From NCBI GenBank assembly GCA_937896235.1, contig CALBMX010000035.1, positions 1 through 64,000 on the forward strand: a DNA stretch of 64,000 bases, read 5' to 3'. Below are positions 20,340-38,750 of this stretch, piece after piece. Both the position numbers and the translations under genes were made by a program. The notes under the pieces are model-generated. The model was not told the DNA's origin. It saw only the letters and a program-made list of their open reading frames with translations, and did no database searches. The first letter of the stretch is position 1, and every line of letters begins with the position of its first letter. Source of the stretch: an uncultured bacterium. Lineage in GTDB: Bacteria; Planctomycetota; UBA1135; GCA-002686595.

Positions 20340-22382
20340 ATGCCTGATCGCTTCTCGCTCCGTATCGAGAGTGGCGACCGCGCCGGCGAGACCGTTTCCC
20401 TTATTGGGCGCGGTCTTACTATCGGCCGGCGAACCACAAACGACCTTGCCCTTCAAGATAGTTCCGTTTCGGGCCGTCACGCCCGACTGAGTATCGAAGG
20501 TGGCCATGTCATGGTTATCGACTTCGGTAGCACGAACGGCACCTTTGTCGATGACAAACGGGTCGAAGAGTGCGACCTCAAGCCGGGCGATAAAGTTCGG
20601 TTTGGCAAAATTGAAACCGTATTCATCGATGCCGAGGCCGGCCCAGCGCCCGCGCGGGTCGCTATGCCTGCGGCAGCTCCCCGTGCCGATTCCGGCGACA
20701 GCGACGACGATTTCGAAGTCGAAATCGACTTCGAGGACGATCTTTCGATCGAAGAGCCCTCCGCCGTGCCTGCCCAAGCCGCACCGGCGCGGGTGATAGC
20801 GGAAGCCGAGGTCACTTTTGCCGACCTCGATGACGATGAGGACAACGAAGTGCACCAGATCGATGCGGCGGCTCTGGCAAAGTCGGGCGACGGGCGCGGG
20901 TCGACGCCTCTCCTGATAGCGGCTGTTGTGATCGCCGGCGGCGCGGGCTGGTACTTTGCCGGCAAGCCCGGTTTGGGTGGCTCGACCGAGAACGGCAGCG
21001 GTCAACCCGCTGTCCAGGCGGTGGTGAAGACACCCGGAAACATGCTCGCGAACCCGTCCTTCGAGACCGAAGACGAGTCCGCGTGGACACCCTCGGACAC
21101 TGCACCCGTTATGCCTTGGGCTTCCTCGGCTTGGAGGGCGAGTGGCGAGTTCGGCATCGGGGCCGACTTGGAGGCGGGCCAGTGGGGGCTTGTTCGCTCT
21201 GCCCAAATCAACCTAAGTCATAAGCGCGGCCTCACGGCCACTGCGAGTGCATTGGCGGAGGGCGGCGCGCGCCTCGAAATCGGAATCGCTCTAAGCGATT
21301 CCGCGGGTGAGCATCCCTCTACACTCACCTGGAGCTCGGCCCTTGGCACGGACGAGGGCTCGCTGATGCTGCAGCTTGTCGCTGCGCCGGGTTACGACCA
21401 AGCGCGCGTTCTCTTGCGCGCGGCTGCCGATAACACCACGGGTGCGGGTGGCTTCGACGACGTTGCCCTTGTGGCTAGTGCCGAGACGGGGACCGTATCG
21501 TTTGGCGACTTCACCGCAGCCTCTTCGGGTGAGGACCACCTGGTGCTGTACCACATCGATCGGCCCTTGCTGCTGGACCTTGGTGTCGCAGGGGGTGCAA
21601 TGGAAGTTTCGGCAACGGAAGACGGAATGAGCATGCGCTCGGGTGCTGGGGTTTGGAGTGCTGTCGTCGACCCGGCCCTACTCGCTGAAGGTTTGTCAAC
21701 TCTCGGTCAGTCGGGCTATCGCCCCCACGCGGACGCATTCGAGGACACTGGTGTGACCTCGGTTGTGATTGGAAGCCGGGCCCACCAGCTGCGACTCGTT
21801 TTTCCAGCTCCGGTGACCCTCAAAGGGGCGCCTCTCACCCTTGGTTACAAGCTCGAGGCCACTCTTCCTAGTGGCGATGTCGCCTTGGAGTTGAGCTTCT
21901 CGGGTCAGCGCAGCGAGGCTGCGCGCCTCAATTCGGAAGCGAAGGCCGCGGTAGTAGCCGGAGCTCGCGGCAAGGCCGTTCGCCTGTGGCAGAACCTGCT
22001 CAATCGCGTGCCGTTTGATTACGACCTTGTGGCGGAAAGTGAAGCGGGTCGTGCGCTGATGGTCGCGGACGGGCTTGCTGACCTGCAGGCCCTGCGCGGT
22101 GAATTTGAGCGCGCTAGCTTCTTTGCCTTGCCCGAGCTGTTCGCCGCATGTTTGGCGAGCTCGCGCGAGCTAGAGGTGGAGTTTAAAGGCTGTGAAGTCG
22201 AAGGTGCGGCCAAGCTTTTCGCCGATGACGTCGAGGCGAAGTTGGCCGAACTTACAGGCTCAACAGAGAGCGACGATGAGCGCGTGCGCGGGGCTATCCT
22301 CGTGTACTTAGAACAGGCTGGCCATTCGAGTCTCGCTGCGCGCCTGCGCAAGAGCCTCTCTGGAACGGATAAGGCGGAGTAG
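20340..22382 (+). CDS. FHA-domain membrane protein with carbohydrate-binding-like outer region
   Basis: 680 aa, first gene of the pseudopilus operon. Residues 1-95 are a clear forkhead-associated domain (TIGRRTTNDLALQDSSVSGRH, GSTNGTFVDDKRV), which would read phospho-threonine in the cytoplasm. An acidic linker follows, then one TM helix (TPLLIAAVVIAGGAGWYFA, about 186-205). Outside, NMLANPSFETEDESAWTP opens a jelly-roll-like region that resembles CBM4/9-type domains, followed by beta-rich sequence and a helical C-terminus. It may link kinase signalling to assembly of the downstream apparatus, a role inferred only from domain order. The PilM-type gene follows after 5 bases. Confidence 0.78.
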   Translation: MPDRFSLRIESGDRAGETVSLIGRGLTIGRRTTNDLALQDSSVSGRHARLSIEGGHVMVIDFGSTNGTFVDDKRVEECDLKPGDKVRFGKIETVFIDAEAGPAPARVAMPAAAPRADSGDSDDDFEVEIDFEDDLSIEEPSAVPAQAAPARVIAEAEVTFADLDDDEDNEVHQIDAAALAKSGDGRGSTPLLIAAVVIAGGAGWYFAGKPGLGGSTENGSGQPAVQAVVKTPGNMLANPSFETEDESAWTPSDTAPVMPWASSAWRASGEFGIGADLEAGQWGLVRSAQINLSHKRGLTATASALAEGGARLEIGIALSDSAGEHPSTLTWSSALGTDEGSLMLQLVAAPGYDQARVLLRAAADNTTGAGGFDDVALVASAETGTVSFGDFTAASSGEDHLVLYHIDRPLLLDLGVAGGAMEVSATEDGMSMRSGAGVWSAVVDPALLAEGLSTLGQSGYRPHADAFEDTGVTSVVIGSRAHQLRLVFPAPVTLKGAPLTLGYKLEATLPSGDVALELSFSGQRSEAARLNSEAKAAVVAGARGKAVRLWQNLLNRVPFDYDLVAESEAGRALMVADGLADLQALRGEFERASFFALPELFAACLASSRELEVEFKGCEVEGAAKLFADDVEAKLAELTGSTESDDERVRGAILVYLEQAGHSSLAARLRKSLSGTDKAE

Positions 22383-22387
22383 TCCCA

Positions 22388-37736: not shown

Positions 37737-37742
37737 CACGCC

Positions 37743-38750
37743 ATGATCCTCCCCCTCTCTTGGAAGAGCTGCGCCTTTGTTAGCGCGGCTTGTGCTCTCT
37801 CTATGATTTCGTCGTGCCAAACGCCAACGGACAGCCAGTCCGTTGGCGCGCTTTCGGGCGGGATGACACCCGGTGGGGCAGTGGCTATGCCGCTCGCACC
37901 AACGCCCGGACTTGGCGCTAGTGTTGTGGAGGCCGGGCCTGCCGAGGCTCAAGACACCGCAATCGCATATGTTGCCGGCCAGGCGATTGATGTGCGCGAG
38001 CTCCTTGCACACTGGGCGCATCGCGATAGCCGCAGTGTGTACGACTTCACAGACCGCCTAGTCACCAGTCGGCTTTCGCTGGCCGAGGCAACCCGACTCG
38101 GGGTCACGCTCGATCCGGCCCTCGTGGACAGCAGGGTCAACGCGACTCGCAGCGCGCTCGCTGAGATGCTGGAGCCCTCGGGTATCGAGATCGACCGCTA
38201 TCTCATGGAAGAGCTTGGGTTAGATCCGACGCGCTATTTTGAGATCGTCCGCGATGAGACTGTGCTGCAGCTTATGAGCGAGCGCGCTGTGCGTGCTTGG
38301 ACTTTGAGCTCGGAGCGCGCGGAGGTTGCTGTGATCGTTGTTGTGAGTAAAGAAGAGTGTGATGCCGCCGTGGCCCGCCTCGAAGCTGGCGAGGCGTTTG
38401 AGGAGGTCGCGAGAGCGCTCTCGATCGACCCTTCTGCAGGAAATGGTGGGCTTTTACCCCCGGTTGTGAAATCGGAGATGTCGGTTCTGTCGCGGCTTGC
38501 CTTCCGCACGGAAGCAGGCGCATGGGGTGGCCCGATCGAAGAGAGCGGCAGCCGGATCCTGATTTACGTTAAGGGCTTCCCAGAAGCCCAAACTGGCGAT
38601 TGGAAGGCAATCGGAGCTGCAGTCGAGGCAGATCTTGCTGCAAATGCGGTCGACGACCCGGAATACTGGCAATGGCGCGCAGCGATGGGGCGTCGGTATG
38701 AGGTCGATATGCGGCCTCTTTTTAAGCTTTTGGGCGAGCCTCTCCCCTAA
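37743..38750 (+). CDS. PpiC/SurA-like lipoprotein
   Basis: 335 aa. The N-terminus has a lipoprotein-type signal ending SMISSC, then a low-complexity linker and a SurA-N-like helical region (about residues 80-190). A reduced parvulin-like domain follows (FEEVARALSIDPSAGNGGLLPP, AFRTEAGAWGGPIEESGSRI). The expected role is as a chaperone or isomerase for exported proteins, possibly the large pseudopilins upstream. It is the last gene of the operon; the next gene has its own promoter. Confidence 0.75.
   Translation: MILPLSWKSCAFVSAACALSMISSCQTPTDSQSVGALSGGMTPGGAVAMPLAPTPGLGASVVEAGPAEAQDTAIAYVAGQAIDVRELLAHWAHRDSRSVYDFTDRLVTSRLSLAEATRLGVTLDPALVDSRVNATRSALAEMLEPSGIEIDRYLMEELGLDPTRYFEIVRDETVLQLMSERAVRAWTLSSERAEVAVIVVVSKEECDAAVARLEAGEAFEEVARALSIDPSAGNGGLLPPVVKSEMSVLSRLAFRTEAGAWGGPIEESGSRILIYVKGFPEAQTGDWKAIGAAVEADLAANAVDDPEYWQWRAAMGRRYEVDMRPLFKLLGEPLP

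Follow-up and report, generated by a model that had tools for sequence, protein, structure and literature searches.

What kind of machine is encoded by the eleven tightly packed genes at positions 20340-38750 of contig CALBMX010000035.1 from an uncultured planctomycete, and which motor drives it? The stretch analyzed here (hereafter the window; 64,000 nucleotides, G000:C35:1-64000) belongs to a 4.26 Mb genome assembly (G000) of 134 contigs that is 88.5% complete, and all eleven genes lie on its plus strand in the order FHA, PilM-PilN, PilO-like, TPR, pseudopilins G-H-K-J-I, a TPR/zinc protein and a lipoprotein of the peptidyl-prolyl isomerase (PPIase) type, followed by scpB. A first-pass annotation of this DNA, which recognized a single pseudopilus cluster with a PilMNO-type platform and five pseudopilins, gave the genes, their order and their coordinates correctly, and the results support its reading of an envelope machine related to type II secretion systems (T2SS) and type IV pili (T4P). 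We conclude that the locus very probably specifies a Planctomycetota-specific type IV filament machine that is paired with a motor cassette, E2-PilT-E1-F, encoded elsewhere in the genome. The fuller statement, namely that the type IV filament is retractile and captures polymers with a giant tip that bears lectin domains, we regard from the sequences as about evenly balanced between true and false.

The cluster carries no secretin gene, and in the 100 loci of the cluster that we compared, none has GspE or GspF beside it. A GspE-like match near the cluster in two loci (L118 and L125) belongs to an adjoining Tad-type locus; in both, Tad/Flp-type pilus genes stand immediately upstream of the FHA gene. 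The first-pass annotation had placed the missing ATPase, platform and secretin elsewhere, and a genome-wide search indeed recovered GspE, GspF and several secretin genes, all outside the cluster. Several E/F sets are present: a T2SS on contig C32 (D-E-F-G-H-I-J), a conventional T4P on C25 (pilT-B-C-A plus pilM-N-O-Q), a T2SS/T4P-like set on C102 and a pilin-less cassette, E2-PilT-E1-F, on C33, the PilT of which exceeds the curated cut-off (TIGR01420, 1.6e-135). As E2-T-E1-F or E2-E1-F, this cassette occurs in nearly all window-type genomes searched, both within the order and in distant families (it is incomplete in G192), and no pilin genes were detected beside it in the window-type genomes. 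In three genomes of the Planctomycetia (G084, G108 and G357, the last of which we take to be Planctopirus limnophila DSM 3776), the cassette and the pseudopilins form a single co-directional operon, E2-T-E1-F-G-G-H-I-J-giant K, with a terminal GspK-like protein of 1569-1645 residues, and in G357 this operon occupies about 498.9-517.5 kb of the chromosome; in G062, the cassette is followed by pseudopilin-like genes and a 1576-residue protein with a GspK-like N-terminus. With a profile of the giant proteins of G084 and G108, relatives were detected in 82 of the 119 genomes of their class, many of the matches being partial and weak. An IQ-TREE phylogeny of 59 ATPases recovers an E1 clade (22 rows, support 100/99) and an E2 clade (21 rows, 99/95), each uniting both arrangements; the T2SS and PilB sequences group elsewhere, in clades of their own (100/100 each). 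From the joined operon and the E1/E2 tree we infer, with good support, the pairing of the window cluster with the C33 cassette, which is therefore its likely partner, rather than the ordinary T2SS of C32 or the T4P of C25. This refines the earlier proposal as far as the ATPases and the platform are concerned; the secretin has several candidates and no assignment.

The arrangement is far from a chance assembly, given its recurrence in 20 relatives: the eleven-gene cluster is found in all 20 loci of the order fetched at length, always with a GspK of 1600-1800 residues, in a comparison where the script placed a few boundaries wrongly, BLAST failed to find a few of the weakest orthologs and the locus end truncated some PPIase genes. 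Relatives of PilM-PilN were detected in 57 of 61 genomes (35 of 37 in the family and 22 of 24 in the rest of the order). Named carriers of the cluster are Planctomycetes bacterium Pla86, Poly30 and Pla163. The PilO-like gene is kept in 99 of the 100 loci, 14 of which were scored as irregular in gene order, a score that we read as an artifact of sorting overlapping stop-to-stop frames. Across the phylum, a GspK profile search reached 153 of 246 genomes, and the block FHA-PilMN-PilO-TPR-G-H-K-J-I recurs, whole or nearly so, in eight distant families (genomes G225, G142, G085, G079, G143, G075, G204 and G232); there, the profile matches cover the LamG portion of GspH as well, and those of the TPR protein continue to its C-terminus. 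These surveys, in the order and in the distant families, bore out the synteny that was to be sought across the Planctomycetota. In several of the distant families, a second FHA-domain gene lies just upstream of the cluster (L215-L216, L223, L225 and L227-L228, from G085, G075, G204 and G232).

The first-pass annotation had further proposed that at least four proteins of the cluster carry lectin-type or carbohydrate-binding-module (CBM)-like folds, and here the strength of the evidence differs among them. For the GspH-like pseudopilin (28269..29315; N_methyl, 1e-5) and the giant 1730-residue GspK-like minor pseudopilin (29312..34504), Pfam and Protein Data Bank (PDB) profiles strongly support a predicted LamG domain, at residues ~85-290 and ~600-1110 of the window proteins, respectively, although the window proteins scanned singly, including these two, matched no LamG model and it is the scans of orthologs that are positive. 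Orthologs of GspH match Laminin_G_3 in 17 of 20 cases (best 3.4e-10), N_methyl in 19 of 20 and the GspH Pfam family in 2 of 20, the GspH profile aligns with laminin alpha-1 LG4-5 in the PDB at 2.4e-7, and the orthologs have the make-up of a modular pilin, with a pilin N-terminus and an additional ConA/LamG module. Those of GspK match Laminin_G_3 in 11 of 21 cases (best 4.3e-8), T2SSK in 12 of 21, NF037980 GspK in 19 of 21 (best 3.6e-11), Verru_Chthon_A weakly in 4 of 21 and Rcc01698_C, the C-terminus of a gene-transfer-agent protein, in 2 of 21. An AlphaFold2 model of GspK residues 560-1730 (pLDDT 76.5, pTM 0.74) resembles laminin LG and CBM40 folds, with a best E-value of 6e-4 and small aligned parts, and it also matches phage and viral structural proteins. 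The protein combines a GspK-like N-terminal part and a LamG region with phage tail/baseplate-like repeats (~796-860, ~1449-1510 and ~1528-1600; pattern FP..G...IG.E.I.Y ... RG..GT....H..G..V), and it displays the motifs DLDSA (~128) and NINTA (~374).

The ConA-like domain of the TPR protein and the CBM70-like domain of the FHA protein are more weakly supported. The TPR protein (24881..27592), which is N-terminally anchored and occupies the usual pilP slot, was modeled with a pLDDT of 85.6 as a helix (residues 5-22), TPRs to about residue 704 and strands from 706 to 901 that form a putative LamG/DUF1080-type beta-sandwich. Of 20 orthologs of this C-terminal domain, 4 match 3keto-disac_hyd (DUF1080) and 3 match Laminin_G_3, each at ~1e-4; a PDB profile search with the domain alone gave nothing convincing, and because TPR superhelices swamped the Foldseek search with the full model, we judged the domain by the Pfam matches of its orthologs and the modeled strands. 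The FHA protein (20340..22382) has a cytoplasmic FHA domain (PF00498, 2e-19; present in all 21 orthologs), one predicted transmembrane segment and an exported CBM-like jelly roll, which matches hyaluronate lyase 4d0q at 1e-6 (profile positions 183-339), in the part that we take to be its CBM70 module. Both proteins are predicted to be anchored in the inner membrane, and hence only H and K, the two carriers of the domain among the five pseudopilins, can place a lectin-type domain on the filament. The fold and profile searches returned laminin LG, CBM40 and 4d0q matches, with weak E-values for the GspK model, and with GspE, GspF and GspD also encoded in the genome, neither the folds nor the gene content contradicted the first-pass reading. 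These lectin-like domains may grip glycans, as the first-pass annotation proposed; LamG and ConA domains often bind proteins. Taken together, the comparative sequence data support the gene content, its conservation, the LamG folds on H and K and the pairing with the cassette.

To our knowledge, standard T2SS pseudopilins lack lectin or LamG-type domains, and in this respect the distinction drawn by the first-pass annotation stands for the T2SS. It does not extend to T4P, where LamG-bearing modular pilins have already been described and are probably tip-exposed (PMC8179133). Other known systems resemble parts of the cluster. PilM-PilN has as its best curated family NF045709 (1.5e-31), that of Amuc_1101, the PilM-like protein of the Amuc_1098-1102 cluster in Akkermansia muciniphila, a fellow member of the PVC superphylum (Planctomycetes, Verrucomicrobia and Chlamydiae); however, its 109.9 bits compare with a cut-off of 650, the Akkermansia cluster includes a secretin that the window cluster lacks, and the likeness rests on PilM-PilN. 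Similarly, the Verru_Chthon cassette A-D (TIGR02596/2598/2599/2600) combines a large protein A with pilin-like B, C and D proteins, and the window I, J and G proteins and some K orthologs match its models weakly, but all matches are far under the curated cut-offs and those to protein A are N-terminal only (for TIGR02600, none of 14 genomes exceeds the cut-off and only sub-threshold N-terminal matches were seen).

We propose that the cluster would supply the assembly platform (PilM-N, the PilO-like protein, the TPR anchor and the FHA regulator) and the whole pseudopilus, with G as the shaft and H, K, J and I as minor and tip subunits, while the cassette would provide in trans two assembly ATPases, a PilT-type retraction ATPase and a GspF/PilC platform. 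E1 and E2, with MshEN-type, cyclic di-GMP-binding-like N-termini, would power polymerization of G beneath a tip made of giant K, I, J and the LamG-bearing H. E1 has an MshEN domain (2.3e-17) and both E1 and E2 weakly match a cyclic di-GMP-binding motif model, making control by this nucleotide possible; Ser/Thr phosphorylation sensed by the FHA domain may likewise gate the platform. The LamG domains would then bind a polymer, be it a polysaccharide, a glycoprotein or another surface ligand, and PilT-driven retraction would draw it to or through the envelope. Given the PilT-type ATPase in the cassette, T2SS-like secretion is no more likely than retraction, for uptake or adhesion. Ligand, retraction, uptake and secretin are elements that we only infer, uptake of the captured polymer being plausible in view of the gold-dextran that labels pili-like fibers in P. 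limnophila (PMC5394234). In Akkermansia, the accumulation of mucin products requires loci that include pili genes (reviewed in PMC12418764).

Several observations weigh against this proposal. In G084 and G108, no LamG was recognized in the giant GspK or in the minor pseudopilins, and the same holds for the G357 proteins; LamG-mediated lectin capture therefore cannot be a function common to all of these machines, and the lectin decoration belongs to the window-type lineages. Alignment of the window-type and Planctomycetia-type giant GspK families with hhalign covers the N-terminal helix segment only, and the case for their common origin is therefore built on their place in the operon, their size and the cassette tree. 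The cassette is without pilT in G143, G191 and G075, and none of the several secretins of the window genome could be assigned to the machine.

An adhesive or twitching T4P, with a LamG tip that sticks to algal, chitin or particle surfaces and no transport of polymer, is a somewhat unlikely but serious alternative. It is favored by the PilT of the cassette and by precedent: modular pilins with vWA serve as adhesins, a role also predicted for those with LamG (PMC8179133). The type IVa pilus with modular pilins, as in the PilB/PilC of Streptococcus sanguinis, shares with the machine proposed here the PilM-N-O platform, PilT and bulky ligand-binding modules, including a ConA-like lectin, grafted onto minor pilins (PMC8179133). 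It differs in that the window cluster is without PilA, PilP and PilQ, has a TPR protein in the PilP position and T2SS-like pseudopilins, and coexists with an ordinary T4P encoded elsewhere in the genome. That distinct locus on C25 speaks against a mere adhesion pilus, which would also leave unexplained the conserved, putatively periplasmic ConA-like and CBM-like domains of the TPR and FHA proteins.

T2SS-like secretion, in which the pseudopilus would push out folded exoproteins such as carbohydrate-active enzymes and the LamG domains of H and K would recognize cargo or cell-wall glycan, we consider unlikely, though still a serious rival. The cluster does contain all of the GspG, H, I, J and K classes (several by matches under curated cut-offs) with a GspK-type tip, GspE/GspF relatives are at hand and the genome has secretins. 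Nevertheless, its platform is of the PilM/N/O rather than the GspL/M type, GspC and a dedicated GspD were not identified, the window GspK is about five times the normal size, LamG sits on H and K, and the FHA and TPR parts are foreign to the T2SS. Classical T2SSs have no PilT, which the matched cassette carries, and grafted lectin modules are familiar to us from pilins rather than from T2SS pseudopilins. A separate conventional T2SS is encoded on C32, with its GspE in a clade of its own, and a separate PilM2/GspM-like pair in relatives could serve as the L/M of such C32-type systems. Finally, that there is no third machine, the window PilM-N-O and pseudopilins being merely the missing L/M/K or minor-pilin genes of the C32 T2SS or the C25 T4P, would account for the lack of L, M, C and K near C32 and of a minor-pilin cluster near the C25-type T4P loci, but it is very improbable. 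The C32-type T2SS already includes G-H-I-J, and members of the order encode a PilM2 plus GspM-like pair and a D plus K locus apart from the cluster. Two genomes (G048 and G051; assemblies roughly 90% complete, in which a locus may be missed) keep the cluster and cassette with the T4P undetected, and in the Planctomycetia, the cassette shares an operon with pseudopilins.

Candidates for the secretin of the proposed retractile machine include a small secretin at 137-139 kb of C35 and two secretins in ExbB/ExbD operons. The former, on the same contig outside the window (G000:C35:137365-140413; L030 7365-10413), is a 480-residue protein encoded with a 516-residue GspK-like protein between pnp and purA, a pair kept through the order (L084, L095 and L101); paired with its own GspK, it perhaps belongs to the T2SS. 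On C33 (G000:C33:98000-117000, L031), secretin genes share operons with genes for TPR proteins, ExbB and three ExbD-like proteins, and paired copies of such secretins recur in relatives. A second PilM paralog (585-628 residues) with a GspM-like partner occurs in L102, L103, L104, L107 and L108, in some cases beside ribAB and an extracytoplasmic function (ECF) sigma factor; the two may be the L/M that the ordinary T2SS lacks.

The remaining genes of the cluster are consistent with a complete pseudopilus and its accessories. The PilM-PilN fusion (22388..24079) unites an actin-like PilM (PilM_2, 6.5e-11) with a transmembrane/PilN-like C-terminal part; in addition to NF045709, it matches TIGR01175 at 7e-16, both under the curated cut-offs, and we discounted its FtsA and MreB matches as expected from the actin-like PilM fold. 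The PilO-like bitopic protein (24039..24881) matched no family in the Pfam and NCBIfam scans; it owes its name to its place in the cluster, its size and its one membrane anchor. GspG (27633..28262; N_methyl, 4.9e-7; TIGR01710 GspG, 6.7e-14, under cut-off) is the probable major subunit. GspJ (34501..35688; N_methyl, 1.3e-5; TIGR02599 Verru_Chthon C, 1.6e-4, under cut-off) begins with a GTG that overlaps the gspK stop. The N-methylation motif passes the Pfam cut-off in G, H and J and falls just short in GspI (35526..36206; 20.7 versus 21.2 bits; N_methyl, 2.9e-4; TIGR02598 Verru_Chthon B, 2.5e-4, under cut-off), whose translation probably begins further downstream than the mechanical open reading frame (ORF) start, with the prepilin motif at about residue 67. 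There follow a TPR protein with a DnaJ-like zinc-finger C-terminus (36216..37736; weak TPR and DnaJ_CXXCXGXG matches), a probably secreted accessory present in all 20 loci, and a probable lipoprotein with a probable parvulin-type PPIase domain (37743..38750; Rotamase, 9.8e-4, just under cut-off), a likely folding accessory and the conserved last gene ahead of scpB. Elsewhere in the window, the sequence reads as an ORF for a group II intron-type reverse transcriptase (94-1440) next to a transposase-like ORF (1467-2894), and, on the minus strand, as a 2309-residue TPR protein (46768-53697) adjoining a MoxR/DUF58/vWA (Bat-like) operon (53703-60018).

Crateriform structures of P. limnophila and Gemmata obscuriglobus bear pili-like fibers that are decorated by gold-dextran, and the periplasm of these species is reached by dextran (PMC5394234). 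P. limnophila, in the form of G357 as taken here, has both such labeled fibers and the sister operon, which allows the hypothesis that the window machine is linked to the crateriform-structure fibers, to which no gene is tied in the literature that we searched. We offer only as a tentative and rather doubtful extension that a phylum-wide retractile pseudopilus hooks polysaccharides or glycoproteins by lectin-like or other modules, reels them into the enlarged periplasm and is the genetic basis of these fibers. Most of the sampled genomes of the phylum have a giant-GspK-tipped machine; in many lineages its pseudopilins bear LamG, and in some the motor cassette is split off. How large polymers are taken up into the planctomycete periplasm is an open question for which the cluster and its cassette provide named genes, and the sister operon in P. 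limnophila, where gene deletion works (PMC11958385), would make that question directly testable.

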